From Streptomyces spinosisporus (lineage in GTDB: Bacteria > Actinomycetota > Actinomycetes > Streptomycetales > Streptomycetaceae), in the NCBI RefSeq assembly GCF_022698145.1, contig NZ_JALDAX010000004.1:248001-312000 (forward strand): a stretch of 64,000 bases of DNA, in the 5' to 3' direction. A model generated the notes under the pieces. That model worked only from the letters and a program-made list of their open reading frames with translations. It ran no database searches and had not been told where the DNA came from. Positions 47,709-63,043 of the stretch are shown here, piece after piece. Made by a program: the position numbers and the translations under genes. How positions within the stretch are numbered: position 1 is the first letter of the stretch; each line of letters begins with the position of its first letter.

Positions 47709-48284
47709 TCAGACGTTGACGCCGAAGTCGGAGGCGATACCGGCCAGCCCGGAGGCATAACCCTGGCCAACCGCGCGGAACTTCCACTCGCCGCCGTGCC
47801 GGTACAGCTCGCCGAAGACCATCGCGGTCTCGGTGGAGGCGTCCTCGGACAGGTCGTAGCGGGCGATCTCCTGGCTGTTCGCCTGGTTCACCACCCGGAT
47901 GAATGCGTTGCGCACCTGGCCGAAGCTCTGGCCGCGGGCGTCCGCGTCATGGATGGACACCGGGAAGACGATCTTGTCGATATCGGCGGGTACAGCGGCG
48001 AGGTTCACCTTGATGCTCTCGTCGTCCCCCTCGCCCTCGCCGGTGAGGTTGTCGCCGGTGTGCTCCACCGAACCGTCCGGGCTGCGCAGGTTGTTGTAGA
48101 AGACGAAATGCTGGTCGGAGACGACCTTGCCGGATGCGTTGAGCAGCAGCGCGGAGGCGTCGAGGTCGTAGTCCGCGCCGGTGGTGGTGCGTACGTCCCA
48201 TCCGAGACCTACAAGGACCGCGGTCAGCCCCGGTGCCTCCTTGTTCAGCGACACGTTGCCGCCCTTGCCCAGGGAAACTCCCAC
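47709..48284 (-). CDS. TerD family stress protein 1
   Basis: This 191-residue protein is a TerD-type calcium-binding protein of the tellurium-resistance/stress group. Typical motifs are [20 protein letters not shown], the Ca-binding stretches [11 protein letters not shown] and [13 protein letters not shown], and [23 protein letters not shown] 48284 has GGGAGGAAG upstream. A TTGCGCAA box sits in the gap to the divergent tatB-like gene. TerD proteins are cytoplasmic and act near the membrane in envelope stress and metal stress. Confidence 0.95.
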
Positions 48285-48361
48285 GGCTCTTCCTCCCGGT
48301 TGCGGGTTGTCTTTACGGTCAGTGGGTTTCAACGCAGAACCTACCGCCATGGTTCCCATGC

Positions 48362-48369
48362 TTGCGCAA
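48362..48369. promoter_or_regulatory. TTGCGCAA box A
   Basis: A perfect 8-bp palindrome TTGCGCAA lies between the divergent terD (start 48284) and tatB-like (start 48438) genes, about 75 bp from each. It is one of eight such boxes in the right part of the window. Confidence 0.7.
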
Positions 48370-48437
48370 CAACTAAAGTATCGGCATCACAGGTTCCGCA
48401 CCGGGCGAGCCGGCACCAACAAGGCGAGGGATGGCAG

Positions 48438-48887
48438 ATGTTCTCCGACGTAGGCCCACTCGAACTCGTCACCCTGGTCATCCTCGCAGTGCTGCTCTTC
48501 GGCCCCGACAAACTGCCGGAGATCATCCAGAACGTGGCGGAGTTCCTGCGCAAGGTGCGGGCGTTCTCCGACAGCGCCAAAGAGGAGATCCGCTCCGAAC
48601 TGGGGCCGGAGTTCAAGGACTTCGAGTTCGAGGACCTGCACCCGAAGACCTTCGTACGCAAACATGTCCTGGACGGCGAGGAACTGGGGCTCGGGTCCGG
48701 ACTCGGGCTCGACGAGATCCGCGGTGCACTGGACCCCAGGAAGGAACTGACGGAAGCCGCCGATGCCGTGCGCGAGGCGGCGGAGATCAGCTCATCACAG
48801 GGCTCCGCGACGCGCCCCGTAACCCTGACAAAGCCCGAACACGCCGAGGCGGCGGCGCCTCCGGTATTCGACAAAGACGCCACCTGA
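48438..48887 (+). CDS. TatB-like protein
   Basis: This 149-residue protein has the TatB pattern: short N-terminal helix (LELVTLVILAVLLFGPDKLP), PEI hinge and a long amphipathic helix (IIQNVAEFLRKVRAFSDSAK), then an acidic region (EIRSELGPEFKDFEFEDLHP). This is the form of TatB known in Streptomyces, where it binds twin-arginine precursors. The usual main tatB is presumably encoded elsewhere, so this is likely a paralogue tied to the TerD island. A TTGCGCAA box precedes it. Confidence 0.9.
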   Translation: MFSDVGPLELVTLVILAVLLFGPDKLPEIIQNVAEFLRKVRAFSDSAKEEIRSELGPEFKDFEFEDLHPKTFVRKHVLDGEELGLGSGLGLDEIRGALDPRKELTEAADAVREAAEISSSQGSATRPVTLTKPEHAEAAAPPVFDKDAT

Positions 48888-48929
48888 GCAGCCGGGACTC
48901 CTCACGCGCCTCGCGATTCGATTTAACAG

Positions 48930-48937
48930 TTGCGCAA
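48930..48937. promoter_or_regulatory. TTGCGCAA box B
   Basis: TTGCGCAA lies 16 bp before the GTG at 48954. It is embedded in a longer inverted arrangement, AACAGT ... ACTGTT. Confidence 0.68.
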
Positions 48938-48953
48938 TACTTAAACTGTTGCC

Positions 48954-49184
48954 GTGGAGACGAGGCCAGTGACGGGGCAGGAAGCGGCTGTTCTCAGCGG
49001 AGGACCCGCGGACGGGTTGCGCATGCGGGTCACGGACCGGCCGTGGGTGATCCAGGTGACCTACCTCTGCGAGGTGGAAGGCCGGCCGGACGGGGTGCGC
49101 GCGGAGGCGCTGTACATCTACCGGCGTGACGCCGGCGTGAAGAGCGAGCCACTGCTCTACGGCTTCGACATCGCGAGCCCCTGA
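48954..49184 (+). CDS. Small conserved hypothetical protein
   Basis: This 76-residue protein reads VLSGGPADGLRMRVTDRPWV, then IQVTYLCEVEGRPDGVRAEA and LYIYRRDAGVKSEPLLYGFD. It is soluble and strand-rich. No family name is known to me. GTG 48954 is used; GTG 48969 is an alternative. The TTGCGCAA box 16 bp upstream suggests membership of the same regulon. Confidence 0.65.
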   Translation: METRPVTGQEAAVLSGGPADGLRMRVTDRPWVIQVTYLCEVEGRPDGVRAEALYIYRRDAGVKSEPLLYGFDIASP

Positions 49185-49204
49185 CCGTCGCACCCCGCGG
49201 GACG

Positions 49205-49483
49205 TCAGCGGGCGGCGGTGTCCTCGGAGACCGTGCGGGCCGAGGTCGCATCCCCGGGCGCGGACTGGATGACCTTCGCGGCCGACGGCTCGGGCGTCCC
49301 GTCGGACGAGGCGGCAGCCGTCGGGGCGCCGTCGTCCTTCATGGCCTTGGCCTCGCTCTTGAGGATGCGCATCGACTTGCCCAGCCCACGGGCGGCCTCC
49401 GGCAGCTTCTTCGAACCGAACAGCACGATGATGACGATCGCGACGATCAGCAGGTGCCAGGGTTCCAGTCCGTTGCGGAGCAT
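49205..49483 (-). CDS. TatA-like protein
   Basis: This 92-residue protein has the TatA pattern: [20 protein letters not shown] as membrane helix, then [22 protein letters not shown] as amphipathic helix and a disordered, Ala/Ser/Thr-rich tail. It is the third Tat-like protein in the window. No TatC is present. A TTGCGCAA box lies 73 bp upstream. Confidence 0.92.
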
Positions 49484-49555
49484 CCCGCCCACCCTTCTCT
49501 ACGCCGAAAAGCAGTGCGCGCCGGGCAGGCCGCACCCTCTGCCATGATTGCTACC

Positions 49556-49563
49556 TTGCGCAA
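49556..49563. promoter_or_regulatory. TTGCGCAA box C
   Basis: Perfect TTGCGCAA about 73 bp upstream of the tatA-like gene at 49483. Confidence 0.68.
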
Positions 49564-49760
49564 CTGTACAACCCTGGGGTCGGGCCGGTCGCCCCCTCCG
49601 GACGAGTCACCTGCGGCGCACTCGCACCGGGCGCCGATCCCCTCGGCTGATTCCCGCAGTCCACCGGGCAGCAGCCCGGGGTGGCTGCACGGAGGGGCGC
49701 GCGCCTGTCCGTGACGGGGCACACGACGCCCGGTACCGACAGCTTGTCGACCGCACCGGT

Positions 49761-50171
49761 TCACCAGCGGTCGGCTGTGCCGCCGTCCTCAAGGCCCAAG
49801 CTGCGGGCAATTCCCAACAGCTCGAGAGTGCCGCGGGCCTGAGTGCCGACGTGCGTAACGATCAACCGGGTGCGGCGCAGACGCACTGCGTGCAGCGCCA
49901 TGAGGAAGGCCCTGCCGCCGCCGCTGTCGAGACGAGAGACCCGTCGGAGATCGATCTCCAATACCTGCGGATCCGAGGCGACGGCTTTCCGTAATTTCTC
50001 ACCGACTAGCTCTGCGTTCGCCGCCGTGATCTCTCCACTGATCCGCACGACGACGCGGTCCGCGTCACCGGAGGTACGAACCGTGCGCCGCAACGAACGC
50101 AGCACCCGGCCGCAGACCTTCCGAATTCCATCCGCTGCCGGCGGCGAACCGGGGGGCGAGGAATCCGTCAT
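49761..50171 (-). CDS. STAS-domain anti-sigma factor antagonist
   Basis: This 136-residue protein has a C-terminal STAS domain: VVVRISGEITAANAELVGEK and LEIDLRRVSRLDSGGGRAFL, where the Ser in DSGG sits at the usual phosphorylation site. Such proteins bind anti-sigma kinases and release a stress sigma factor. A 40-residue basic N-terminal extension is unusual. No kinase or sigma gene is next to it. A near-match TTGCGCGA lies at 50311-50318. Confidence 0.87.
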   Translation of the reverse strand: MTDSSPPGSPPAADGIRKVCGRVLRSLRRTVRTSGDADRVVVRISGEITAANAELVGEKLRKAVASDPQVLEIDLRRVSRLDSGGGRAFLMALHAVRLRRTRLIVTHVGTQARGTLELLGIARSLGLEDGGTADRW

Positions 50172-50418
50172 TGGAGTCTCCCTACCAGCGTCGGTGGAGT
50201 TGACGCCTCCCTCCCGACCTGGCGCTCGCTACGTGACGTCGCGGGCCGAAGAGACGTTGCACGATGGCGGGATCGCGCAGGGGCTCGGCGTCCCCCTCAT
50301 CATTCCATCGTTGCGCGACTCATAATGTGTCGGCCGGAGACCCGCCCGATTGCCCACGCTGCCCGCTCGCTTCGGAGCGCTGTTCACCTGGCCCCGATCA
50401 CGCAGAGAACGACTCGCT

Positions 50419-52125
50419 TCACGCGTCGGAATCGGGCTTGCTGCTCGCCGCCGCGTACGCCTGTGCCGGGGTCATGGCGACGCCGTTGAGGCTGACGGTC
50501 TTGTAAGAGCTCACCTTCGCGCAGGACTTGGACTCGTCGGCGGTGGAGGCGTGGGCGTTGGAGACGGCGGCCTTCGCGTCGGCGGGTGCCGGTGAGGACG
50601 AGGTGCCCGGGTAGGTGGTGCCGCTCGGCCAGTCGCTGCCGATCACCAGAGTCAGGCCGGTGCCGGTGCCCTGCTCAAGGTGTGCGGAGGACAGCCCCAG
50701 CGCCTCGGCCGCGGTCTGCGCCTCGGCCTTCTGGTCCGTGCCGTAGGTCAGGGTGGTCGTGGTCGCCGGACTCGGGGCGTTGGCCGTGGTCGTGGCGGAG
50801 CTGAAGCCCTGTTCGGTCAGGGCGGTGGCGACGGCGGAGGCGCGGCCGGTGATGTCGGTGCCGTTCTCGACCGTCACGGCGATCTGCGACGCGGGCACCG
50901 CCGAGGCGGTCGCGGTCGCGGAGGCCGCCGCGGACTTCTTGCCGGAACCGGTGGTCAGCGACTGGTCGCCGGCGATGGTGGCGAAGAGGGACTTGGCGCC
51001 CGCGCCCACCACCACGCGGTTGTCGTCGGTCGGGTCGGGGGCGGTCTGCATGGTGGTGAAGGTGATCCGCTTGGTGGGGACCTTGTCCAGGTCGGTGGCG
51101 AGGCCGATGAGCTTTTTGACGCTGCCCAGGCCGTCGTCGACGGTCAGGGCCTTGGTGGCCGCGTCGGCGAGGTCGTAGACGGCGGTGGGGTCGGTCAGGG
51201 TGCCTGCGCTCTTGAACTTGCGGATCATCGAGCTGAGGAAGATGTGCTGGGAGACGGTACGGCCGAGGTCGCTGCCGTCGCCGAAGCCGTGCCGCGAGCG
51301 GACGAACTCCAGCGCCGCCTCGCCCTTGAGGGTGTGGGTGCCCTTGGACAGCTTCAGGTGCGAGTAGGTGTCGTAGACGTTGTCGCTGACGCACACCGAG
51401 ACACCGCCGACCGCGTCCGACATCTTGACCACACCCGAGAAGTCGAGCTTGACGAAGTGGTCGATGGGGATGCCGGTGAGCTGGTGGATCGTGGCCACCT
51501 GGCAGGCCGGGCCGTACTGCAGCGCGCTGTTGATCTGGCCGTGGTAGCCAGCCGTAGACGTGCCGTTCTCGCCGTCCTTGCAGGCCGGGACGTCGGTGAT
51601 GGTGTCGCGGGGGATGCTCATCACGGTGGCGTTGGACCGGTCGGCGGCGATGTGCACCACCATCTGGACGTCCGCGTTGCCGTTGCCGGTCTGCACGCCG
51701 GTCTTCGAACAGCCGCCGCCGAGCTTGCAGTCGGCCTTGCTGGTACGGCCGTCCGAGCCCATGACCAGGATGTTAATCGGGGTGCGGCCGAAGGCGTCGG
51801 CCTTCTCGGTGCCGCCTTTGCCGTCGAGCGAGATGCTGTTGATGTTGCCGTTCAGGTGCTCGTAGAACCACCAGCCGGCACCGGCGGTGGCCAGGATCAG
51901 GACGGACAGACAGATCGCGGCGATCTTCAGGATCCGCCTGCCGCGCCGCACTGGTCGGACTCGGCGGCGCGACCGCGTGCCGCCGCGTTCGCGCGAGGCC
52001 GCCCGTACCGCCGCCCGGCCACCGGGTGGGCGGGCGCCGTCGGACTCGGTCGCGCGCTGTCCGGGCACCCGCGCGCTACGGCTGCGCGTCGCCTGCCCGA
52101 CCGGGCCGTCCCACGGGTCGCTCAT
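50419..52125 (-). CDS. LytR-CpsA-Psr (LCP) family protein with LytR_C domain
   Basis: This 568-residue membrane protein attaches anionic glycopolymers to the cell wall. It has an Arg-rich cytoplasmic N-terminus, one membrane helix (ILKIAAICLSVLILATAGAG), an LCP domain with TPINILVMGSDGRT, ATVMSIPRDTITDVP, LEFVRSRHGFGDGSDLGRTV, and a C-terminal LytR_C domain (VTVENGTDITGRASAVATAL). ATG 52125 has GGGAGTGG upstream. A TTGCGCAA box lies 39 bp upstream of the start, tying it to the TerD island regulon. Confidence 0.93.
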   Translation of the reverse strand: MSDPWDGPVGQATRSRSARVPGQRATESDGARPPGGRAAVRAASRERGGTRSRRRVRPVRRGRRILKIAAICLSVLILATAGAGWWFYEHLNGNINSISLDGKGGTEKADAFGRTPINILVMGSDGRTSKADCKLGGGCSKTGVQTGNGNADVQMVVHIAADRSNATVMSIPRDTITDVPACKDGENGTSTAGYHGQINSALQYGPACQVATIHQLTGIPIDHFVKLDFSGVVKMSDAVGGVSVCVSDNVYDTYSHLKLSKGTHTLKGEAALEFVRSRHGFGDGSDLGRTVSQHIFLSSMIRKFKSAGTLTDPTAVYDLADAATKALTVDDGLGSVKKLIGLATDLDKVPTKRITFTTMQTAPDPTDDNRVVVGAGAKSLFATIAGDQSLTTGSGKKSAAASATATASAVPASQIAVTVENGTDITGRASAVATALTEQGFSSATTTANAPSPATTTTLTYGTDQKAEAQTAAEALGLSSAHLEQGTGTGLTLVIGSDWPSGTTYPGTSSSPAPADAKAAVSNAHASTADESKSCAKVSSYKTVSLNGVAMTPAQAYAAASSKPDSDA

Positions 52126-52163
52126 CCACCACTCCCATGAAACGGTCGGGCTCGCTTGCGTGA

Positions 52164-52171
52164 TTGCGCAA
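52164..52171. promoter_or_regulatory. TTGCGCAA box D
   Basis: TTGCGCAA within the larger palindrome GATTGCGCAATC (52162-52173), 39 bp upstream of the LCP gene. Confidence 0.72.
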
Positions 52172-52247
52172 TCTAACAAACGAATCACATGTACAGCACA
52201 GTTCCCGCCGCAATTCACAGGTGAGGGATGTCATGGAACCCGCAACC

Positions 52248-52544
52248 TCACTGCCCCGTCGGCCCGTACCGGGCGATGATCCACGCGGCACCGCGCTCGG
52301 CCAGCACCCGTCGCCGCCCCCGCCGCGAACGCCGTAATCGCGCCTGCGGAGACGGAACTTCGGGCGGCCTGTCCGCCAAAACGGCGAGACGGCCGGCGGC
52401 ACGCGCCAGCTCTGCCTGCAGCCCCCTGCGGCGCTCCGAAGAACCCGCCCTCAGTAGCGCCGAGTAGAGCCCTTCGACTTCGGCCACGGCGGCGCCCAGC
52501 CGCAGATTCGCATCACGCACTCGCTGTCTGTCCCCGCGCGGCAT
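52248..52544 (-). CDS. Hypothetical helical protein
   Basis: This 98-residue protein is Arg- and Ala-rich and helical (LRLGAAVAEVEGLYSALLRA, GLQAELARAAGRLAVLADRP), ending AAWIIARYGPTGQ. No family is recognised. A TTGCGCAA box lies 50 bp upstream, which supports a real, regulated gene. Confidence 0.6.
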   Translation of the reverse strand: MPRGDRQRVRDANLRLGAAVAEVEGLYSALLRAGSSERRRGLQAELARAAGRLAVLADRPPEVPSPQARLRRSRRGRRRVLAERGAAWIIARYGPTGQ

Positions 52545-52593
52545 AGCTGCCCGCCCTCCCCCGAAACCGGGGCCGCCCCGGCGAATTCAATTA

Positions 52594-52601
52594 TTGCGCA
52601 A
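52594..52601. promoter_or_regulatory. TTGCGCAA box E
   Basis: Perfect TTGCGCAA 50 bp upstream of the small gene at 52544 (minus strand), in the gap before the transglycosylase gene end. Confidence 0.68.
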
Positions 52602-52615
52602 GGCGGCAATTGGAT

Positions 52616-53290
52616 TCAGCGTGTGCCGACGGCCCCTCCCGCCTTGGCCCAGTTCGCGTGCAACTTGTTCAGGTACGACTGGGCCTGACTGCCGGGGGTC
52701 GCGCCACGGGCGAAGGCGAGCATGTTGCCCGCGCCGGCGTTGTAGCCAAGGGCCAGCAGCTCGTTCTTCGTGTAGGAAGCGGGCCAGGTTGCGGGCAGTT
52801 GCTTCGTGAGGTCGTGCAGGTACCAGGCTTCGGCCTCGATGGCGAGGTCCCGGTCGTCGGGCAGTTCCTCCCAGCGACGGTCAGCGAAGTCCCGGCCCTT
52901 CTTGACCCCGTCGAAGGTGGCACGGTGCATGTTCGCGATACCGAAGGCGGCGTCCGGCTTGTACTTCTGCCAGGCCCGCTCGAAAGCCGGGCTTTGGGGT
53001 TTGTACGCCTCGTTGTAGAGGATCGCCATCAGCAACTGGGCGCTGACGCCGCTCTGTTTGGCACGGGTGCGGATCAGGGAGGCGTAGTCGGCGGGGTCGT
53101 ACGACGAGGCGGTCGTCGCAGAAGCGGAGGGAGCGGCGGAGCCGCCTGACGCCGACCGTGTCGAGGAGGCTGCCCCTGCCGGATGTTTCGTTTCGCCCTG
53201 CGAGGTGTCGGCCGCGCGCACGATGACGTACAACGCCAGGACGAAGACCGCCACAGCGAGCCACCGCTTCGGTGCCCGGGACTCGGACAT
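52616..53290 (-). CDS. Lytic transglycosylase (SLT domain) membrane-anchored protein
   Basis: This 224-residue protein has one N-terminal membrane helix (RWLAVAVFVLALYVIVRAAD), a Ser/Ala/Thr-rich linker and an SLT-type lysozyme-like domain: LIRTRAKQSGVSAQLLMAIL, catalytic Glu in YNEAYKPQ, AAFGIANMHRATFDG and LALGYNAGAGNMLAFARG. It should cut peptidoglycan glycan strands outside the membrane. ATG 53290 is chosen because the membrane helix follows directly. It follows the MgtA-type gene on the same strand after 100 bp. Confidence 0.85.
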   Translation of the reverse strand: MSESRAPKRWLAVAVFVLALYVIVRAADTSQGETKHPAGAASSTRSASGGSAAPSASATTASSYDPADYASLIRTRAKQSGVSAQLLMAILYNEAYKPQSPAFERAWQKYKPDAAFGIANMHRATFDGVKKGRDFADRRWEELPDDRDLAIEAEAWYLHDLTKQLPATWPASYTKNELLALGYNAGAGNMLAFARGATPGSQAQSYLNKLHANWAKAGGAVGTR

Positions 53291-53390: not shown

Positions 53391-56051
53391 TCATTCCGCC
53401 CGGCGTCGCTCGTAGCGTGCCCTGGCCGCCAGGAGGCCGGCGGCGTAGAGGACGAGAACGGCGGCGAGCAGCAGGTAGTACACGATCGGCAGCGCGGTGA
53501 GGCCGAGCATGGGCCCGAGTGGCGAGGGCGGCAGCAGCACTCCGACGGCGGCCAGCGTCGCCGCGGCCCAGGTGACGGGACCCGGCATGCGCCCCTCTGC
53601 ACCGCGCCGTGCCGCGCGCATGAGCAGCATCACCAGGGCCTGGGTGAGCAGGTTCTCGGTGAACCAGCCGGAATGGAACACCGCCTCGTCGTCCCCGGTC
53701 CCCGGCCCGTGCAGGGCGAGGGCCAGGACACCGAACGTCGCCAGGTCGGCGACGGCGTTGAGAACACCGAACCCGGTGATGAATCGCAGAAGGTCGCGTG
53801 GACGCAGCACGGTCGGCCGACGCAGCACCGACGGGTGCGGGTGATCGTGGGCGAAGGCCAGCTGTGCGGCGTCGAAGCACAGGTTCTGGACCAGGACCTG
53901 TGCCGGCAGCATCGGCAGGAACGGCAGGAGCAGGCCCGCGGAGAGCATCGCGATCACGTTGCCGAGATTCGAGGACAACGTGATGCGCAGGTACGTGGCG
54001 ATGTTGCCGCCCGCATGCCGGCCCGCGGTGATGGCGTGGGCGATGGCAGTGAGGTCCTTCTCGGCGAGCACCAGATCCGCGCCCTCGCGGGCGACGTCGG
54101 CGGCTTCGCGAGGGGCGATACCGACGTCCGCCGTGCGCAGGGCGGGCAGGTCGTTGACGCCGTCGCCGAGAAAGCCGACGGCGTGCCCGGAGGTCCGCAG
54201 TGCGTGAGTGATCCGGGCCTTGTCGTCGGGCGCGCAGCGGGCGAAGACCGTCGTACGGCGGGCGAGACAGGCGAGTTCGGCGTCGCCGAGGCCGCCGATC
54301 CGGTCGGCGGTGAGCACGGCGTCCGCGGCGAGGGGAAGGCCGAGGTCGCGGCAGACGCGGGCGGCGGTTCCCGGATGGTCGCCGGTGAGGATCTTGACCG
54401 TGACCCCCTGGTCGGTGAGGACCTTCAGCGCGTCGGCGGCGGTGGGAGCGAGCGCATCCCTGAGGGTGATCAGCCCGCGGAAAGCGAGGTCGCGTTCGTC
54501 CGCGGGGGTGTAGTCGCGGGCACGTGCCGGGCGTTCGGCGGTGGCGACCGCCAGGACACGCAGGCCGCCGTCCGCCTGCTGGGCGGCGAGGCCACGCAGC
54601 CGCTCCCGCTCCTCTTCCGCGAGGGTGCAGCAGCCGAGGACGGCCTCCACATCCCCCTTGACGACCAGGGTATGCCGGCCGAACCGGCCCGGAGTGCGGA
54701 TGACGGCGGTGGCGATCCTGCGCACCGAGTCGAAGGGGATGGCCGCCATCCCTTCGTACGCCATGAGTTCGTCCTCGCCGGCCGCGTCCAGGATCGTTTC
54801 GTCGAGGGCGTCGGGAGTGGGCAGGTCGGCGAGTTGCAGGGTCCACCAGGCATTGACGGCGGCCCAGTGCAGGACGTCCGGGTCGTCCCGCCCGTCCGGT
54901 CCGAGGGCCCGGTCGAGGACCGGCCGGTCCTGGGTGAGCGTGCCGGTCTTGTCCAGGCACAGCACATCCACGGCCCCGACGTCGTGCAGCGCGGGCAGGC
55001 GTTTGACGATCACCCCGTGGGAGCGGGCCAGCAGCGCTGCACCGCGCGCCAGGCACATGGTGACGAGGACCGGCAGCATCTCCGGCGTCAGCCCGACCGC
55101 CACCGCGACCGCGAACGGCAGCGTCTCCAGGCCGCGGTCGCGCAGCGCCGCGTTCGCCATCAGCACCAGCGGCGGGGTGAGCAGCATGAACCGGATCAGG
55201 ATCCACGAGATGCCGTGCACGGACCGGTCGAAGGCGCTCGCGTCCTGCCGCCCGGACGGACGGCCGTGCGCGTCGGCGAACCGGGTGTGTGCGCCGGTCG
55301 CGGTGACGACTGCGGTGGCGCTGCCGGAGGCGACGCTGCTGCCCTGGAAGCACAGCTGGGGCTGGCCGAAGGGCCCGCGGTCAGGCTCGGAAGGGATGTC
55401 GTCCGCGTGCTTCGCCACGGGCGCCGACTCTCCCGTCAGCGCGGCCTGGTGCACTGTCAGACCGCTTGACCGCAGCAGTCGTACATCCGCCGGAACCAGG
55501 TCACCCGGCCCGAGCCGGATCACATCGCCGGGGACCAGGTCGTACACCGGAATCTCGCGGGCCGCCGACGCCACGTCCATGTCGTGGTCATCGGTTCGCC
55601 GCAGCACGGTTGCGGTGGTGGCGACCAGCTCACGCAGCGCCGCCGTGGACCCGTTGGCCCGGTACTCGCCCGTCGCCCGCAGCACACAGCTCACCACGAC
55701 CAGCAGGAGGATCACCGAGGCGGTGCCCCAGGCGAAGACGGCCGCGGACACCAGCCCGAGGCTTCCCAGCACCGCCGTGAACGGGTCGCGCAGACTGCGG
55801 ACGAACAGCCGCAGCCACGAGGTTTCGCTCCGTTCCGGAAGCGTGTTCTGACCCCACCTGGCCAGGCGCTCCTCGGCCTGCGCCTCCGTCAGACCCCGCG
55901 GACCACTGTCGAGGCGGCGCAGCACTTCCAGCACGGTCGGCGCGGCAGGGACCGAAGAGGATCCCTCACTCCCAAGTGCCGAGACTGCCGATACGGCCCC
56001 GGGAGCAGGGAGTTCGGCGTCCTGCCCCGAGGCTGCGGTGGTCTCAGCCAC
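53391..56051 (-). CDS. Magnesium-translocating P-type ATPase (MgtA type)
   Basis: This 886-residue P-type ATPase has ALTGESAPV (actuator), DKTGTLTQD (phosphorylation), and GDGVNDLPAL (hinge), plus ten membrane helices. The pattern fits the P3B/MgtA subfamily importing Mg2+: AVAVAVGLTPEMLPVLVTMC and KRLPALHDVGAVDVLCLDKT. It starts at GTG 56051, overlapping the ArsR gene by 8 bp, so both are one operon and ArsR should respond to metal level. Confidence 0.92.
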   Translation of the reverse strand: MAETTAASGQDAELPAPGAVSAVSALGSEGSSSVPAAPTVLEVLRRLDSGPRGLTEAQAEERLARWGQNTLPERSETSWLRLFVRSLRDPFTAVLGSLGLVSAAVFAWGTASVILLLVVVSCVLRATGEYRANGSTAALRELVATTATVLRRTDDHDMDVASAAREIPVYDLVPGDVIRLGPGDLVPADVRLLRSSGLTVHQAALTGESAPVAKHADDIPSEPDRGPFGQPQLCFQGSSVASGSATAVVTATGAHTRFADAHGRPSGRQDASAFDRSVHGISWILIRFMLLTPPLVLMANAALRDRGLETLPFAVAVAVGLTPEMLPVLVTMCLARGAALLARSHGVIVKRLPALHDVGAVDVLCLDKTGTLTQDRPVLDRALGPDGRDDPDVLHWAAVNAWWTLQLADLPTPDALDETILDAAGEDELMAYEGMAAIPFDSVRRIATAVIRTPGRFGRHTLVVKGDVEAVLGCCTLAEEERERLRGLAAQQADGGLRVLAVATAERPARARDYTPADERDLAFRGLITLRDALAPTAADALKVLTDQGVTVKILTGDHPGTAARVCRDLGLPLAADAVLTADRIGGLGDAELACLARRTTVFARCAPDDKARITHALRTSGHAVGFLGDGVNDLPALRTADVGIAPREAADVAREGADLVLAEKDLTAIAHAITAGRHAGGNIATYLRITLSSNLGNVIAMLSAGLLLPFLPMLPAQVLVQNLCFDAAQLAFAHDHPHPSVLRRPTVLRPRDLLRFITGFGVLNAVADLATFGVLALALHGPGTGDDEAVFHSGWFTENLLTQALVMLLMRAARRGAEGRMPGPVTWAAATLAAVGVLLPPSPLGPMLGLTALPIVYYLLLAAVLVLYAAGLLAARARYERRRAE

Positions 56052-56430
56052 CGGTCCCGTGCAGTCGGCGTACCGTCGCGGCGGCCGGCTGCAGGCGGGC
56101 CGTCAGCTGTCCGACCATCACGCGCACCACGGTCACGACGTCGGGGTCGTCGACGTAGTAGACCTGGCGGCGGCCCTCACGACGGGAGCGGACGAGCCCG
56201 GCGAGCTTCAGCTTCGCCAGGTGCTGGCTTACCGCGGGAAGCGCGCCGCCGACGCGGTCGGCGAGATGAGTGACGTCGATCTCGCCCTGGGACAGGGCCC
56301 ACATGATGTGCAGCCGGGCGGGCGACGCGAGCAGCCCGAACGCGGCAGCCGCCTCCGTCAGAAGCTCGGCGGACGGGTCCTCGAAGCCACCGCCGATCTT
56401 CGCCACAGCCTTCTCCCGTCCCGCCGTCAT
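56044..56430 (-). CDS. ArsR/SmtB-family regulator
   Basis: This 128-residue protein has an ArsR winged helix: FGLLASPARLHIMWALSQGE, HLADRVGGALPAVSQHLAKL and AGLVRSRREGRRQVYYVDDP. In the recognition helix region the metal-site Cys of classic ArsR is absent; residues such as D and H in DVTHLAD may bind metal. It precedes and overlaps the MgtA-type ATPase gene, its likely target. Its own promoter region shows no TTGCGCAA box. Confidence 0.92.
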   Translation of the reverse strand: MTAGREKAVAKIGGGFEDPSAELLTEAAAAFGLLASPARLHIMWALSQGEIDVTHLADRVGGALPAVSQHLAKLKLAGLVRSRREGRRQVYYVDDPDVVTVVRVMVGQLTARLQPAAATVRRLHGTGG

Positions 56431-56498
56431 CACAGTCGCCGCACAAGCGCCCACCCAGTGTAGGGGCGGCGGGCACGGCCCTTGACCGATGAGTCCTC

Positions 56499-57590
56499 TC
56501 AGTCCTCGTAGTAGTTGTTCACCACGACTTCCGGTTCGTCGTCGTCGAACGCCTCGTTCAGCAGCGCGCCGCCGACCAGACCGGCCGCACCGGCGCCGAT
56601 CAGCGCGCCGGCGCCGAAGCGGCGCCCGCCGTCCTGCTGCTGGTGGTGGTCGTGGTGGTCGCCGTACGGCTGCCCGTAGCCGCCCTGTTGCGGATAGCCC
56701 TGCGGCGCGGGCTGCGGATACCCCTGCTGGGGCGGCGTGTAGAACGGCGGAGGTGTGGTCTGCACTCGCTGTGCGCAGCCTCCGCACGCTTGGATCGACC
56801 GGGAGACACCCCACTGCGGGGACCAGTTCACCGTCGTCGTGCCAGGACCGTGGTTGGGGTCGAAGAAGCACGTCATGGAGGGGCTCCCTGTGGGTTGCGG
56901 CGGTGCAGTGAAGGTCGGAGCAGGGGAGGACACGACGGTCGGTGTCGGCGCGGCGGGCGCGGGCGGCGGGTACGTACTCGTGCTGACAAGCGGCGAAACA
57001 GCGGGGGCCGGGCTCGGCGCCTCCTCGCGCAGGACGCTAACGCCGTAGTCGGTGGCGATGCCCGCGAGCCCGGAGGCGTAGCCCTGGCCGATCGCGCGGA
57101 ACTTCCATTCCGCGCCGTGTCGGTACAACTCGCCGAAGACCAGCGCGGTCTCGCTCGTCATGCCGCCGACGGCTAGGTCGTAGCGGGCCAGTTCGCTCCC
57201 GCTGTCCTGGTCGAGTACGCGGATGTGGGCGCGGTGCACCTGCCCGAAGGACTGTCCGCGGGCCGCGCCCTCGTGGAGGGAGACCGGGAAGGCGATCTTC
57301 GCGATGTGCGCCGGGACCCGGGCGAGGTCGATGTGGATCTGCTGATTGTCGCCTCCCACGGGGGCGCCGCTACCGGTGTGGCGGACCGAACCGTCCGGGC
57401 TGCTCAGGTTGTTGAAGAAGACGAAGTGCTCGTCGGACGGCACCCTGCCCGATTCGGCACACAGCAGGGCGCTGGCGTCCAGTTCGTAGCCTGCGTTTGC
57501 CTCCCAGCCCAGTCCGATCGTCACCGCAGTCAAGCCTGGGGCCTGCTTGCTCAGCGACACGTTGCCGCCCTTGGCCAGGGACACTGCCAC
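56499..57590 (-). CDS. TerD fused to Cys/Pro-rich and glycine-zipper C-terminus
   Basis: This 363-residue protein has a TerD domain (residues 1-185: [51 protein letters not shown]), then a Pro/Thr/Ala linker, a Cys-containing segment (TCFFDPN ... CGGCAQR), a Gln/Tyr/Pro/Gly-rich stretch with GYPQ repeats, a His patch (DHHDHHQQQ) and a glycine-rich hydrophobic segment (GAGALIGAGAAGLVGGALLN) that could enter a membrane. It lacks the long [13 protein letters not shown] loop of the other TerDs. GTG 57590 has GGAGGA upstream. A TTGCGCAA box lies 20 bp before it. Confidence 0.9.
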   Translation of the reverse strand: MAVSLAKGGNVSLSKQAPGLTAVTIGLGWEANAGYELDASALLCAESGRVPSDEHFVFFNNLSSPDGSVRHTGSGAPVGGDNQQIHIDLARVPAHIAKIAFPVSLHEGAARGQSFGQVHRAHIRVLDQDSGSELARYDLAVGGMTSETALVFGELYRHGAEWKFRAIGQGYASGLAGIATDYGVSVLREEAPSPAPAVSPLVSTSTYPPPAPAAPTPTVVSSPAPTFTAPPQPTGSPSMTCFFDPNHGPGTTTVNWSPQWGVSRSIQACGGCAQRVQTTPPPFYTPPQQGYPQPAPQGYPQQGGYGQPYGDHHDHHQQQDGGRRFGAGALIGAGAAGLVGGALLNEAFDDDEPEVVVNNYYED

Positions 57591-57610
57591 GTCCTCCTCC
57601 ATTTCGTGAC

Positions 57611-57618
57611 TTGCGCAA
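57611..57618. promoter_or_regulatory. TTGCGCAA box F
   Basis: Perfect TTGCGCAA 20 bp upstream of the GTG of the TerD-fusion gene, so bound protein would block transcription or the start region. Confidence 0.7.
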
Positions 57619-57702
57619 TATCTTAATCAAGTGACAGTACGTCAACGGCCAGGTCGCAGCTGCCTGTGAGCCCTCGTCACAGCGTTCAGGTCACCCGTAG
57701 GC

Positions 57703-57710
57703 TTGCGCAA
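57703..57710. promoter_or_regulatory. TTGCGCAA box G
   Basis: Perfect TTGCGCAA 33 bp upstream of the GlsB/YeaQ gene; box F is 85 bp away on the other side of the same divergent gap. Confidence 0.7.
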
Positions 57711-57742
57711 ACGAGCAATCCTTACTCCTGGAGGACAACACC

Positions 57743-58009
57743 GTGGGCATCATCAGCTGGATCATCCTCGGCCTGCTCGCCGGAGCGATCGCCAAGATCC
57801 TGCTGCCCGGCCGCGACCCCGGGGGCCTGATCGGCACCACCCTCATCGGCATCGCGGGCGCCTTCGTCGGCGGCTGGCTCTCCGCGCGCTTCCTCGACCG
57901 CCCGGTGGAGAAGCAGTTCTTCGACCTCTACACCTGGGGCGCGGCGATCGGCGGCTCACTGGTCCTGCTCATCGGTTACCGGCTGCTGTTCGGCAACTCG
58001 CGCGACTGA
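57743..58009 (+). CDS. GlsB/YeaQ/YmgE family stress-response membrane protein
   Basis: This 88-residue protein has three hydrophobic helices and the family pattern: ISWIILGLLAGAIAKILLPG, GLIGTTLIGIAGAFVGGWLS, and IGGSLVLLIGYRLLF. Members are general stress membrane proteins of unknown mechanism. GTG 57743 has GGAGGA 8 bp upstream. It is divergent from the TerD fusion and shares a gap that holds two TTGCGCAA boxes. Confidence 0.93.
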   Translation: MGIISWIILGLLAGAIAKILLPGRDPGGLIGTTLIGIAGAFVGGWLSARFLDRPVEKQFFDLYTWGAAIGGSLVLLIGYRLLFGNSRD

Positions 58010-58030
58010 CCCCCGTGTCGGCCGCCCAGG

Positions 58031-58615
58031 TCACAGGTGACCGGCGATGGCGGGCAGCAGGTCCTGGAAGGTGCGGCCGGCGGCGGGCTCGCCGATGGCC
58101 GTCAACTGCCAGCCGCCGCCCGCCCGGTGGAACTTGGCCATGATCTGGGCGGTGTGGGCGCCGCCGCCGCTGAGGGTGTATCGGGCGAGTTCCTGACCGG
58201 TGATCTCGTCGACCAGGCGGCAGAAGGCGTTCTGCACCTGGGCGAAGGTCTGCCCGGTGAACGAGTTGACCGTGAAGACGATCTGGTCGACATGGGCGGG
58301 CACACGACCGAGGTCGACGAGGATGACCTCGTCATCACCGCCGACGCCGGCGCCTCCGGTGAGGTTGTCCCCGAGGTGCCGTACGGAGCCGTCGTCACTG
58401 GTCAGGTGCTGGAAGAAAGCGACGTCGGCCAGCTGCCCGGCGGAGAAGAGCAGCGCCGAGGCGTCCAGGTCGATGTCGCGGGGGCCGGTCAGTTTGGCCA
58501 GGAAGCCCTTGGCGGGCGCGGCCTGCCAGCCGAGTCCCATGCGTACGGAACTCAGGGCGCTGCCGTCGGACTTGCTCAGGCTGATCTGCTGGCCCTTGCT
58601 CAGATTGACCGACAC
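58031..58615 (-). CDS. TerD family protein (TerZ/TerX-like)
   Basis: This 194-residue TerD-fold protein differs from the closely related TerD copies: MSVNLSKGQQISLSKSDGSA, a longer loop (AAPAKGFLAKLTGPRDIDLD), and DLGRVPAHVDQIVFTVNSFT GQTFAQVQNAF. The calcium loop is GDNLTGGAGVGGDDE. It thus belongs to the more distant TerX/TerZ side of the family. GTG 58615 is used. Confidence 0.92.
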   Translation of the reverse strand: MSVNLSKGQQISLSKSDGSALSSVRMGLGWQAAPAKGFLAKLTGPRDIDLDASALLFSAGQLADVAFFQHLTSDDGSVRHLGDNLTGGAGVGGDDEVILVDLGRVPAHVDQIVFTVNSFTGQTFAQVQNAFCRLVDEITGQELARYTLSGGGAHTAQIMAKFHRAGGGWQLTAIGEPAAGRTFQDLLPAIAGHL

Positions 58616-58660
58616 GGGGCATCTCGCTTTCTGTCGCTGGATTGTCCAGGGGGAGGAGAG

Positions 58661-59248
58661 CTACGGGGTGAGGGCTTCGGGCAGGTGGCGGCGCAGGTAG
58701 GGCCGTATGCCCCGCTCCAGGAGGGCTTGCTGCCAGTGCTCACGGGCCTGGTTCAGGGAAGTCCCGGTGCGCTGGTTCAGGGCAGTGCGCAGCAGAGCCC
58801 AGAGGCTGAAGCCGGCGGTGACCACCGCGACGAGGGCGAGCAGCCATCCCGCCTTCACCACTGACGAAGCCGGCCTCGTGGCCGTGTCGGCGAGACGAAG
58901 CGCGTACCCGGTGAGCAGGAGAATGACCGCCGCCGCAGCCGACACAAGAGGCACGAGTACCGCCAGGGCAGCCCACAGGGTGTTGCCGGCCGCGGGAATC
59001 CTCCTGCTCGCTGCCGCTTCCGGGTTCGTTGCGGCATCCCGGGCAGCGAGAAAGGCGAGGTATTCGTCACCGGCCGCGGCCGCTATCGCCTCTGCATCCC
59101 CCAAGGCCCGATCACGCAGACGCACGGTGGCTCTTCCGGTGGGATCGTCGCGGAGCGCCGAGCGGATGTCGTCTGCTCCGAGCGCCAGGCTCAACGCCCG
59201 CTCAAAGTCCGCTCGGTCCTCCGGGCGGAGGTCGGGCGCGCTGGTCAC
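58661..59248 (-). CDS. Membrane protein with conserved C-terminal AR-x2-W motif (paralogue 1)
   Basis: This 195-residue protein has an acidic helical N-terminus (ERALSLALGADDIRSALRDD), two membrane segments (LWAALAVLVPLVSAAAAVIL, VVKAGWLLALVAVVTAGFSL) and a C-terminal motif AREHWQQALLERGIRPYLRR. The same motif appears in the 62042 protein (ARKAWELALMERGMVPFL), so they are paralogues. It lies 19 bp after the terD gene at 59268 and so is probably co-transcribed with it. Function unknown. Confidence 0.75.
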   Translation of the reverse strand: MTSAPDLRPEDRADFERALSLALGADDIRSALRDDPTGRATVRLRDRALGDAEAIAAAAGDEYLAFLAARDAATNPEAAASRRIPAAGNTLWAALAVLVPLVSAAAAVILLLTGYALRLADTATRPASSVVKAGWLLALVAVVTAGFSLWALLRTALNQRTGTSLNQAREHWQQALLERGIRPYLRRHLPEALTP

Positions 59249-59267
59249 GGGTACGGCGGACGCGCCG

Positions 59268-59846
59268 TCAGACGTTGACGCCGAAGTCGGCGGCGATGCC
59301 GGCCAGCCCGGAGGCGTAACCCTGGCCGACGGCACGGAACTTCCACTCGGCACCACTGCGGTACAGCTCACCGAATACCATCGCGGTCTCGGTCGACGCG
59401 TCCTCCGACAGGTCGTAGCGGGCGAGCTCGGTGCCGCCGGCCTGGTTGACGACGCGGATGAAGGAGGCGTTGCGGACCTGCCCGAAGCTCTGCCCGCGCG
59501 CCTCCGCGTCATGAATCGACACCGGGAACACGATCCGGTCGACCTCGGTGGGCACGGCGGCGAGGTTCACCTTGACGCTCTCGTCGTCACCCTCGCCCTC
59601 ACCGGTGAGGTTGTCGCCGGTGTGCTCGACCGAACCGTCCGGGCTGGTGAGGTTGTTGTAGAAGACGAAGTGCCGGTCGGAGACGACCTTGCCCGACGCG
59701 TTCAGCAACAGCGCGGAGGCGTCCAGGTCGAAGTCGGCCCCGGTGGTGCTCCGCACGTCCCAGCCCAGACCGACCACGACGGCGCTCAGGCCCGGTGCCT
59801 CCTTGCTCAGCGAGACGTTGCCGCCCTTGGCCAGGGAAACACCCAT
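59268..59846 (-). CDS. TerD family stress protein 2
   Basis: This 192-residue protein is nearly identical in pattern to the TerD at 47709: [44 protein letters not shown] and [21 protein letters not shown] one-residue insertion gives NASFIRVV. It starts at ATG 59846 and has a BlaI-type box 59 bp upstream, in the gap to the divergent blaI gene. It should be repressed by BlaI. Confidence 0.95.
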
Positions 59847-59904
59847 GCTTCATCCCTCCACGCAATGCTGTCGGTCGGGGCCGTGCCGCGGACCCGATCT
59901 AGAA

Positions 59905-59920
59905 TCTACATCACTGTAGA
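59905..59920. promoter_or_regulatory. BlaI-like operator box 2
   Basis: TCTACATCACTGTAGA lies between terD (59846) and blaI (60072). It differs by one base from box 1 at 42793. It can explain repression of terD and of the blaI operon. Confidence 0.75.
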
Positions 59921-60071
59921 AATATTCGTGGAGGCGACGCGGGCGGGCAGTACCAAATGCGCCATGCGCCACCCCCGTGAGGTTGTGCACCTAGGGAGCC
60001 GTTGAAGCCCGCTCTATACGATGTGACGCTCCCGGGCACGAGCAGCCAAGTGGGTAAGGGAGGAGACCAGG

Positions 60072-60455
60072 GTGGCAAAGCCGGACTCGCATCGTCAGCG
60101 AAGGGCGCACGGAGCGTTGGAGACGCAGGTGCTCGCGGCGCTGAACGAGGCCGACGGCCCGGTGACCGCCGGGTGGGTGCAGGAGCACCTGGCCGCCGAT
60201 CTGGCGTACACGACCGTAATGACGGTGCTGGCCCGTCTGTTGGCGAAGAATGCCGTCACGCGCAGACGGGAAGGCCGGTCGTTCGCCTGGATGCCCGCCG
60301 CGGACGAGGCGGGGCTGGCCGCATGGAAGATGCACCGGGTGCTGAACAGCGAGCAGGACCGCAGGGCGGTACTGGCCAGCTTCGTCACCGCACTGCCGGA
60401 GGGCGACGAGCAGCTGCTGCGCGAGCTGCTGGACCAGGCCGGCGACAAAGACTGA
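60072..60455 (+). CDS. BlaI/MecI/CopY-family repressor
   Basis: This 127-residue protein has a BlaI winged helix (ALETQVLAALNEADGPVTAG, AYTTVMTVLARLLAKNAVTR, REGRSFAWMPAADEA) and a helical dimerisation C-terminus. BlaI repressors bind TACA/TGTA dyads and are cleaved when a BlaR1-type membrane protease senses a signal. GTG 60072 has GGGAGGAGA upstream. The M56 protease gene follows after 42 bp. Confidence 0.94.
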   Translation: MAKPDSHRQRRAHGALETQVLAALNEADGPVTAGWVQEHLAADLAYTTVMTVLARLLAKNAVTRRREGRSFAWMPAADEAGLAAWKMHRVLNSEQDRRAVLASFVTALPEGDEQLLRELLDQAGDKD

Positions 60456-60497
60456 GGACGGACGAGGACCGAGGATCGAGGACAAGGGCTGACAGCG

Positions 60498-61427
60498 ATG
60501 GGCGTCTTCGTCTTTCTGCCACTGGTACTGCCGTTGACGGCCTGGCCGATAGCGCGCCTGGCCACACAGCGCCTGCACCCCCGCACCGCCACGCTGCTGC
60601 TGACCGGCGTCTCCTGCGTCATGGCCCTGTGCAGCACGGTGTGCCTGGCCCTGCTGATGGTGGTCGGCACCGCTCAACTGCCCGGCAATCCGCTGCCCGA
60701 CGGCTGGTCGGACCCCGAAGTGCGCGAGAGCGTGCCCCACGACGAGATCGCCGGGAAGGCCGCGATCCCCGCACTGATCACGGTCGTCACCAGCTGCGGC
60801 CGGGCGCTTCTTCATCACTTCCGTTTCCGGTGGCGCGCCCACCAGGCGCTGGCGGACCTGCCGTCCACCCAGGTGGCCGTGCTCCCGGACCCACAGCCCT
60901 ACGCCTATGCCCTGCCCGGCGGTCCACGCGACCGGATCGTGGTGTCCACCGCGATGATCGACTGCCTCGGCTCACGGGAACGCCGCGCCCTGTTCGCCCA
61001 CGAGCGCACGCATCTCGCCGCCGGCCACCATCGCCACCTGCTGCTCGTCCAACTGGCCGCGTGCGCCAACCCGTTCCTACGACCGCTGCGCACGGCTGTG
61101 GGCTACACGGCGGAGCGGTGGGCGGACGAAGAGGCCGCTCAGGCCGTCGGCAGCCGCAAGACGGTGGCCCGCGCCATCGGCAAGGCAGCCCTCGTCTCGC
61201 GCGGAACCCCTGTGCCCACGCTCGCCTCTCTCGCCGCGCCGGGCCCGTTGCCGCGACGGATCGCGGCTCTGCTCGGGCCGCCCGCCGTACGTACCTGGCC
61301 ACCGGTCTTCACGGCGGCCGGCCTGGCCTTGTGGACCGCCGCCAGCGGAGCGCTTCTGTCGGCGACGCTCTCGGCCAACTCGGCCTTCACCCTGCTGCTC
61401 CTGCTGCACGCGGCCACACCGCTCTGA
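60498..61427 (+). CDS. M56-family membrane metallopeptidase (BlaR1-like, no sensor domain)
   Basis: This 309-residue protein has four membrane segments and a zinc protease motif HERTH at residues 168-172 (RRALFAHERTHLAAGHH). This is the protease core of BlaR1/MecR1, but the penicillin-binding sensor domain is missing. It should respond to an unknown signal at the membrane and inactivate the BlaI-type repressor encoded just upstream. Confidence 0.92.
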   Translation: MGVFVFLPLVLPLTAWPIARLATQRLHPRTATLLLTGVSCVMALCSTVCLALLMVVGTAQLPGNPLPDGWSDPEVRESVPHDEIAGKAAIPALITVVTSCGRALLHHFRFRWRAHQALADLPSTQVAVLPDPQPYAYALPGGPRDRIVVSTAMIDCLGSRERRALFAHERTHLAAGHHRHLLLVQLAACANPFLRPLRTAVGYTAERWADEEAAQAVGSRKTVARAIGKAALVSRGTPVPTLASLAAPGPLPRRIAALLGPPAVRTWPPVFTAAGLALWTAASGALLSATLSANSAFTLLLLLHAATPL

Positions 61428-61502
61428 CCCCGAACACTGGGCCGGCGCCGACAAGTTGTCGCTCCTGTCGACCCCGGCGACGCACCACGGCAAACAGTTC
61501 GG

Positions 61503-61958
61503 TCACAGGTCGAACTCGTGCGGCGGCAACTCCAGCGCGAAGCAGGCATCCCGCACCACGGCGCGCTCCGTGGCGTCGAAGTCACCGTCGGCACCGCCGA
61601 TCACGATGCCGATCTGGATCACGGCACGCGCCTCGGCCGGCTTCTTCTTCGCCTTGGCGATCTCCTGCAGCACACCCACCTTGCCGAAGTCGAAGTCGGC
61701 GGTCAGCTTGTTGAGGTTGTCGTCGAAGCGGCGCTGGAGGTCGTCGGCGGGGAAGTTCTGCAGCACCTCGTTGCTGAAGATCAGTTGCGCGACGCGCTGA
61801 CGCTCGGACGGGTCGATCTTCCCGTCGGCAGCGGCTACCAGGGCGCACATCGCCATGCTCGCGTCCCGGAACGCCCCACTCTTCAGATCGTTCTTCTTCG
61901 CCACCAGCTGCGTCTGCATCTGCGACGCCGAGTCCTTGATGCGGTCCCACAGGGCCAT
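61503..61958 (-). CDS. terB: TerB family tellurite-resistance protein
   Basis: This 151-residue protein has the TerB helical fold: ASMAMCALVAAADGKIDPSE, VIQIGIVIGGADGDFDATER with the acidic metal-binding loops DGKIDPSER and DGDFDATER, and ACFALELPPHEFDL at the end. TerB acts with TerD and TerC at the membrane. ATG 61958 is used. A BlaI-type box lies 27 bp upstream, so it probably shares control with terD and blaI. Confidence 0.93.
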   Translation of the reverse strand: MALWDRIKDSASQMQTQLVAKKNDLKSGAFRDASMAMCALVAAADGKIDPSERQRVAQLIFSNEVLQNFPADDLQRRFDDNLNKLTADFDFGKVGVLQEIAKAKKKPAEARAVIQIGIVIGGADGDFDATERAVVRDACFALELPPHEFDL

Positions 61959-61984
61959 GTCCACTCCCCATACTCCAGCAGACT

Positions 61985-62000
61985 TCTACATTCATGTAGA
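61985..62000. promoter_or_regulatory. BlaI-like operator box 3
   Basis: TCTACATTCATGTAGA, extended to the perfect-arm palindrome TTCTACA-N4-TGTAGAA, lies 27 bp upstream of terB. Same TCTACA-N4-TGTAGA frame as the boxes at 42793 and 59905. Confidence 0.75.
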
Positions 62001-62041
62001 AGATAGCAGGGCGAGCACATCCGCCTCACCCATCCACAGGA

Positions 62042-62674
62042 CTAACGCGCGGCGCGATCACCTCGTTCCTCCTGGTCCGCCTCCTCGATGCAGTCGAGCA
62101 GAAACGGCACCATCCCCCGTTCCATCAGGGCCAGTTCCCATGCCTTCCGCGCCCTCGCCACCTCCCGGCCGACGTCACCGGCGCCCATGGAACGAGTGCG
62201 CGCCTTCGTCACCGACAGCCAGATCAGGTCACCGACCAGCGCACCGACTGCGACCGCGCACAGGAGCAGTCCCGCGGTGATCAGACCGTCGCCGACGTAG
62301 GGCCGCCCGCCGAAGACGCGCAGCCCGCACCCGGGCAGAAGGAAGAGAAGCCCCGCGACGGCCGGCAGCCCCGGGAAGAGCACCGCCGGCGAACGCAGCG
62401 ACCACCTGCCCGCACCACGAGCCGTCGATGCTTCACCGTCGGGAGACAGACTGGAATCCATAGCCAGCGCTTCGAGGTAGGCGCGGTACTCGGCGTCCAC
62501 CGATGCCGCGATCGCCGTCCTCGCGCCGAGCGCCTTCGCCCGCAGACCCTCCCGGCTGACGGCGCCTCCACAACGGTCGATCGCCTCCGCGATCGGCCCG
62601 AGGCTCATGGCCTCGTCCAGCGTCCGCTCCAAGGCTGCACTGCACTCCGGCCTCAATGGTTCGGCAACCGTCAT
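62042..62674 (-). CDS. Membrane protein with conserved C-terminal AR-x2-W motif (paralogue 2)
   Basis: This 210-residue protein has a helical N-terminus (CSAALERTLDEAMSLGPIAE), two membrane regions (AVLFPGLPAVAGLLFLLPGC and GLITAGLLLCAVAVGALVGD), and the C-terminal motif ARKAWELALMERGMVPFLLD shared with the 58661 protein. Both lie next to ter genes. A TTGCGCAA box lies 50 bp upstream. Function unknown; two copies in one island suggest a role in the same stress response. Confidence 0.75.
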   Translation of the reverse strand: MTVAEPLRPECSAALERTLDEAMSLGPIAEAIDRCGGAVSREGLRAKALGARTAIAASVDAEYRAYLEALAMDSSLSPDGEASTARGAGRWSLRSPAVLFPGLPAVAGLLFLLPGCGLRVFGGRPYVGDGLITAGLLLCAVAVGALVGDLIWLSVTKARTRSMGAGDVGREVARARKAWELALMERGMVPFLLDCIEEADQEERGDRAAR

Positions 62675-62723
62675 ACGTCCCCCGATGGTTCAAGGCGGAG
62701 CCGCGAGTCTAATAGTCGTGGAG

Positions 62724-62731
62724 TTGCGCAA
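62724..62731. promoter_or_regulatory. TTGCGCAA box H
   Basis: Perfect TTGCGCAA midway between the divergent genes at 62674 (minus) and 62780 (plus), about 50 bp from each start. Confidence 0.72.
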
Positions 62732-62779
62732 TCTTCAAACCGTGGGAGTGTGCGCTTCTTCACCGGGAACCCGCGGAGC

Positions 62780-63043
62780 ATGGAGATTTCAGGCGTCATC
62801 AGCGCGATCGTCATCGGCATCGTGATCGGTGTCCTCGGACGACTGGTCGTTCCTGGTCGCCAGCGCATCGGCGTCCTGTGGACGATCGCGATCGGCATCG
62901 TCGCCGCGTTCATCGGCACGGGCATCGCATCCGGCCTCGGCGTCGCCGACACCAAGGGTGTCGACTGGATCGAGTGGATCATCCAGATCGCCCTCGCGGC
63001 CTTCGGAGTGGCTGCGCTCAACAAGGTGAAGCTGCGCCGCTGA
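62780..63043 (+). CDS. GlsB/YeaQ/YmgE family stress-response membrane protein (second copy)
   Basis: This 87-residue protein has the GlsB family pattern: ISGVISAIVIGIVIGVLGRL, VVPGRQRIGVLWTIAIGIVA and a final helix WIEWIIQIALAAFGVAAL. ATG 62780 has GGAG just before it. It is divergent from paralogue 2 and shares TTGCGCAA box H. The other copy (57743) has its own box, so both GlsB genes fall in the same inferred regulon. Confidence 0.92.
   Translation: MEISGVISAIVIGIVIGVLGRLVVPGRQRIGVLWTIAIGIVAAFIGTGIASGLGVADTKGVDWIEWIIQIALAAFGVAALNKVKLRR

Follow-up and report, generated by a model that had tools for sequence, protein, structure and literature searches.

We analyzed a 64,000-nt stretch of the Streptomyces spinosisporus genome (the window; C34:248001-312000 of genome G000), in which genes for TerD proteins, a second TatA and TatB, a LytR-CpsA-Psr (LCP) protein, an MgtA-type Mg2+ ATPase, and an ArsR-family regulator lie together in one island. 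The gaps between these genes hold eight copies of the octamer TTGCGCAA, the core of a longer site that we refer to as the box. We propose, with a probability of about 0.87, that this 24-bp palindrome, TT-N6-TTGCGCAA-N6-AA, is the operator through which the ArsR protein encoded at 56044-56406 controls, most likely by repression, a set of envelope and stress genes. The boxes are as follows.

TTGCGCAA starts: 48362, 48930, 49556, 52164, 52594, 57611, 57703, 62724
Box 1, 48354-48377: TCCCATGCTTGCGCAACAACTAAA, between terD (minus) and tatB2 (plus)
Box 2, 48922-48945: TTTAACAGTTGCGCAATACTTAAA, 17 bp ahead of the 76-aa gene; right arm reaches into the -10 element TAAACT at 48942-48947
Box 3, 49548-49571: TTGCTACCTTGCGCAACTGTACAA, ahead of tatA2 (minus); near-identical in many relatives
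Box 4, 52156-52179: TTGCGTGATTGCGCAATCTAACAA, ahead of the LCP gene (minus); near-identical in many relatives
Box 5, 52586-52609: TTCAATTATTGCGCAAGGCGGCAA, faces a 98-aa frame at 52248-52544 (minus)
Box 6, 57603-57626: TTCGTGACTTGCGCAATATCTTAA, 9 bp ahead of the terD-C start; heads the terD-C, arsR, mgtA run
Box 7, 57695-57718: CCGTAGGCTTGCGCAAACGAGCAA, 33 bp ahead of glsB (plus)
Box 8, 62716-62739: TCGTGGAGTTGCGCAATCTTCAAA, between the 210-aa gene (minus) and a small membrane protein gene (plus)

The genes and the promoter around them are listed below.

56044-56406, minus: winged-helix regulator of the ArsR family (120 aa), proposed to bind the boxes
53391-56051, minus: MgtA-type Mg2+ P-type ATPase, above the TIGR01524 cut-off; frame overlaps arsR by 8 bp
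56499-57602, minus: TerD-C, a TerD domain with a long C-terminal extension
47709-48284, minus: TerD
48331-48356, minus: sigma-E-like terD promoter; GGAAC (48356-48352), N17, CGTT (48334-48331), with the -35 overlapping the box 1 arm region
48438-48887, plus: second TatB (NF002374)
48954-49184, plus: 76-aa all-beta protein, probably with a leaderless mRNA
49205-49483, minus: second TatA
50419-52125, minus: LCP protein
57743-58009, plus: GlsB/transglycosylase-associated membrane protein
62042-62674, minus: 210-aa membrane protein, from a family with 8 box-linked sites

An octamer at the core of a 24-bp palindrome

Exact matching finds TTGCGCAA eight times in the window, compared with an expectation of 0.54 (standard deviation 0.73), and none of 100 shuffles reached eight copies. 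An earlier note on this DNA had reported the same eight positions, all in gaps and with no further copy in the 64 kb, and had estimated that fewer than one would arise by chance; the recount agrees on both points. With gaps making up 12% of the island, the intergenic placement of all eight corresponds to 0.122^8 = 5e-8. The octamers lie 9-73 bp from the start of the gene that they face, roughly the 15-80 bp given earlier, the shortest distance being the 9 bp between the copy at 57611 and the terD-like start at 57602.

The octamer is not equally common elsewhere: the whole 9.4-Mb genome holds 44 copies versus 71 of the reversed control, making it rarer than the control, and 8 of the 44 fall within 14.4 kb (binomial 5e-15). 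Because this total is so low and the majority of the remaining 36 copies lie within likely coding frames, the octamer is a local cluster and no common genome-wide word. At C9:115860-115881 of the same genome (L014), two octamers 14 bp apart belong to an extended inverted repeat (AGAGAAGTTGCGCAA...TTGCGCAACTTCTCT) and in this differ from the regulon boxes.

Alignment of the flanks extends the octamer to a 24-bp palindrome with TT and AA at positions 7-8 outside it on both sides, which gives precise form to the AT-rich flanks noted earlier. Among 184 non-redundant gap sites from relatives, part of them drawn by the 24-bp pattern itself, 152 carry the left TT and 126 the right AA, where 3.6 would be expected; when loci were selected by ArsR alone (80 loci), two or more of the four arm bases accompany 172 of the 178 octamers. 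A first impression that the AA arm was limited to the plus-strand side was replaced by the two-sided palindrome on the strength of the arm counts. G000 contains six copies of the 24-mer and none of the reversed control; five of the six are in the island. The sixth (C12:193616, octamer at C12:193624) has both arms complete and precedes another LCP gene, at a locus (L098) with a second MgtA/ArsR pair alongside.

Conservation of the box across Streptomyces

Among 150 Streptomyces genomes, 52 contain the 24-mer, with at most six copies each, whereas the reversed control occurs in 3. The 150 are taken to be Streptomyces because nearly all named organisms retrieved with the ArsR protein belong to that genus. 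The sites are conserved in orthologous gaps, the 24-mer preceding the same target families across species, including at loci megabases apart, and gene-specific versions recur in relatives (TTGCTAC.TTGCGCAACTGTACAA before tatA2 and TTGCGT..TTGCGCAATCTAACAA before LCP). A near-identical box 5 site stands at the same place in G146, adjoining an SLT gene. A class-wide scan located the 24-mer mostly in Streptomyces; the matches in other families were scattered, and small genomes of family f25 accounted for many of them.

Across 120 loci, 247 of 252 distinct octamers are intergenic, as are 173 of 178 in the 80 loci chosen by ArsR alone, where 81% of the sequence is coding. Box-facing sites in the 120 loci belong to LCP (74), TatA2 (60), GlsB (54), ArsR (35), the 76-aa protein (30), TerD-C (22), TerD (13), the 210-aa family (8), and TatB2 (8), and the start of the ArsR gene itself faces a box in 24 loci. 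The ArsR-chosen loci show how consistently the families are marked, with a box facing LCP in 56 loci for 60 family members, TatA2 in 40 for 44, the 76-aa gene in 26 for 29, and GlsB in 29 for 39. The distance from box to start codon varies by family, with medians of 32 to 182 bp. When 48 palindromic octamers of like composition were counted in the ArsR loci, TTGCGCAA led with 187 copies, followed by a runner-up with 58 (mean about 10).

In two relatives (L094:6538 and L116:2151), a box sits between two divergent genes, one for a multi-pass membrane protein and the other for a product reminiscent of lysozyme-like hydrolases in sequence, so the regulon may reach further cell-wall genes.

Co-occurrence of the box with ArsR

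Close orthologues of the window ArsR (E < 1e-30) are found in 50 of the 150 genomes and stand clearly apart from paralogues. The 24-mer is present in 49 of these 50 genomes versus 3 of the 100 ArsR-negative ones; sorted by box, the same table shows the orthologue in 49 of the 52 genomes with the 24-mer and in 1 of the 98 without it. In G028, the lone ArsR-positive genome without the 24-mer, the 76-aa gene has a box with one mismatch. One of the box-only genomes, G120, carries a near-perfect 24-mer (L064:278-301) 51 bp before the start of a diverged, 45%-identical ArsR homologue; this sister regulator may have the same site specificity. No regulator other than the ArsR at 56044 was found to have an orthologue tracking the box across genomes, and the suggestion of the earlier note that it is a candidate binder thus gains strong support from the co-occurrence, from which we infer binding.

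In the single-contig genome G051, 4 of 5 boxes lie more than 4 Mb from arsR, and the boxes would act in trans. The accessory tatA genes of the ArsR-less genomes G083, G064, G078, and G116 have no box. Both observations argue against mere hitch-hiking of ArsR with the boxes.

Two other island products were considered as binders. BlaI, which served as a negative control, is encoded in 100 of the 150 genomes and shows no association with the box (present in 37 of the 52 genomes that have it and 63 of the 98 others, p = 0.47); it was rejected on this basis, and a different palindrome nearby probably serves it. The 76-aa protein, which is all-beta with no helix-turn-helix (HTH) and no structural match, is unlikely to bind DNA. 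Its family has no Pfam, NCBIfam, or PDB match, and its promoter and box are near-invariant.

The comparative data also support the wider idea that one regulator's operator ties cell-wall, Tat, and Ter genes together, except that not every terD gene of the window is included: those starting at 58615 and 59846 have no box. To that idea we add the 24-bp site, GlsB, the probably leaderless 76-aa gene, and, through operons, MgtA, with targets that are partly dispersed.

Promoter overlap and gene content of the proposed regulon

Relatives of the 76-aa gene have a TANNNT -10 element beginning 4 bp past the octamer in 28 of 28 cases. The start codon follows that -10 by about 7 bp in several of them, as it does in the window, which suggests a leaderless start. 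A second type of overlap is seen at terD genes, where GGAAC-N15-17-CGT(T/C) occurs at a fixed offset in 8 of 13 TerD and 6 of 20 TerD-C promoters, with the -35 inside the box arm (shuffles gave about zero). This element agrees with the sigma-E promoters listed in PMC6767563, a paper with no mention of TerD or "tellur-", and none was seen at the other box targets. Because some boxes overlap promoter elements in this way, either a sigma-E-like -35 or a -10, repression is the likeliest mode of control.

In 41 of 78 loci a same-strand MgtA-type ATPase gene follows arsR, and the two are probably co-transcribed. Since the terD-C, arsR, mgtA run starts at box 6 and the arsR and mgtA frames overlap by 8 bp, ArsR autoregulation is likely.

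TatB and TatA of the island are accessory paralogues, a housekeeping tatA being located elsewhere (G000:C4:249394). In G014 (L107), a gene judged TatC-like by sequence also faces a box, so a second Tat system may belong to the regulon almost in full. The window also carries three copies of another palindrome, TTCTACANNNNTGTAGA (42794, 59906, and 61986), adjoining terD (59846), terB (61964), and blaI (60072-60455), the last followed by an M48/M56-type protease gene; a separate BlaI regulon at these sites in the same island is probable.

The ArsR protein and its relatives

Pfam places the protein in the ArsR/SmtB family (HTH_5, 39.3 bits with a cut-off of 22; HTH_20, 34.9 with a cut-off of 27), and it passes the general NCBIfam HTH_metalloreg model NF033788 (81.9, cut-off 55). 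Its AlphaFold model (pLDDT 83) matches SqrR, SmtB, and CzrA in Foldseek. By sequence and predicted structure, the protein is a winged-helix ArsR/SmtB member.

The nearest PDB structure by sequence (6o8l set, 1.6e-13) and the top Foldseek matches (41-44% identity over about 90 residues) are SqrR/BigR persulfide sensors. The window ArsR differs from them in having no cysteine, and none is conserved among its orthologues, in which only H33 and H62 are near-invariant; the sensing cysteines that define SqrR/BigR are thus missing, and the BigR model scores 43.6, far under its cut-off of 155. With the metal sensors SmtB, CzrA, and NmtR it shares the winged-helix ArsR fold and the match to NF033788. 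Unlike them it lacks the CxC α3N site, and the α5 ligands D/H/H/H of CzrA read D/D/Q/A in a manual register. As judged from these comparisons, the protein lacks the known metal and thiol sensor residues of ArsR proteins.

A functional parallel may be Rv2034 of Mycobacterium tuberculosis. This ArsR protein acts on dispersed targets through a palindromic operator, represses its own gene and activates others, and did not respond to the metals tested (PMC3338718). The regulon proposed here would share the palindromic operator, autoregulation, and dispersed targets, predicted in our case from sequence. The Rv2034 operator differs, consisting of inverted CCGTAAGT repeats with a 4-bp spacer, as do its targets. 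The sigma-E (CseBC) envelope stress regulon of Streptomyces coelicolor likewise contains LCP proteins, and the envelope of the mutant needs Mg2+ (PMC6767563). It overlaps the proposed ArsR set in LCP proteins, and the terD promoters of the island look sigma-E-like; the sigma-E regulon, however, is controlled by a sigma factor and no repressor.

Discussion

Several points weigh against the box being the operator of a repressing ArsR. The 150 genomes are related to one another, so the p values, including the Fisher p = 1e-34 for co-occurrence with ArsR, overstate independence. In the box-only genome G005, which has no close orthologue, the box belongs to a 76-aa relative and an ArsR-like frame lies close by, and G080, also box-only and assembled as a single contig, has the 24-mer and more octamers at LCP and 76-aa genes with a best ArsR match of only 3e-19. 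No octamer at all was found in 5 of the 80 ArsR-anchored loci, and in the ArsR-chosen loci TerD faces a box in only 3 for 25 members, many terD copies being boxless. No clear overlap of box and promoter was found at LCP, GlsB, and most tatA2 genes. Finally, the ArsR family includes activators too, which makes the sign of control uncertain.

It is unlikely that ArsR binds the boxes and activates, or does both depending on box position. The varying distance between box and start codon and the dual behavior of Rv2034 (PMC3338718) would fit such control, but the box overlaps the -10 or -35 of the 76-aa, TatB2, and TerD genes, and protein bound there would stand in the way of polymerase.

Still more doubtful is that another regulator, encoded elsewhere, uses the boxes as operators, with ArsR a mere passenger of the island or one of that regulator's targets. 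This reading would fit the boxes that the ArsR gene faces, as expected of a target, and the box-bearing genomes G080 and G005, which lack a close orthologue; in addition, the HTH proteins of the genomes were profiled only in part. Against this stand the co-occurrence (49/50 versus 3/100), the boxes lying more than 4 Mb from arsR in G051, the boxless accessory tatA genes where ArsR is missing, the box right ahead of the diverged homologue in G120, and the exclusion of BlaI and of the HTH-less 76-aa protein.

That the boxes are chance occurrences, a dispersed repeat, or a DNA-modification word is scarcely credible: restriction and modification systems also use short self-complementary words, but the chance, repeat, and genome-wide-motif readings were rejected on the window expectation, the genome count showing no genome-wide enrichment, the comparison with like palindromes, confinement to gaps ahead of particular genes, and flanks that differ from site to site, as those of a repeat would not.

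For the favored ArsR operator, we infer binding, dimer geometry, repression, and a signal from the computed sites, their conservation, their co-occurrence with ArsR, and their promoter-like overlap. The ArsR dimer would most likely read the inner TTGC/GCAA in the major groove, with its wings most likely contacting the outer TT/AA. On operators over promoter elements, the bound protein would most likely repress. A signal releasing ArsR would switch on the envelope and stress set together, namely the second TatA/TatB, the LCP cell-wall ligase, TerD proteins, GlsB, and the 76-aa beta protein, and, through the terD-C, arsR, mgtA run, also ArsR itself and the Mg2+ ATPase. Quite speculatively, the cysteine-free ArsR without a known metal site might sense Mg2+ availability or an envelope-derived signal through carboxylate and histidine contacts (the conserved H33 and acidic residues around 86-89), linking Mg2+ transport with the attachment of cell-wall polymers and with a second, dedicated Tat translocase; this would be a new sensing class of ArsR.

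In the open literature, with subscription papers mostly outside the search, we found no prior description of a TTGCGCAA operator or of an ArsR with TerD, LCP, or MgtA. A Streptomyces ArsR regulon joining Tat, cell-wall, Mg2+, and TerD genes is thus a well-supported prediction and apparently undescribed. It gives the Streptomyces TerD proteins a predicted regulator and co-regulated partners in the second Tat, LCP, and the Mg2+ ATPase. One 120-aa gene would offer a simple genetic handle on the whole set, and the operator pattern would let the regulon be read from any Streptomyces genome.

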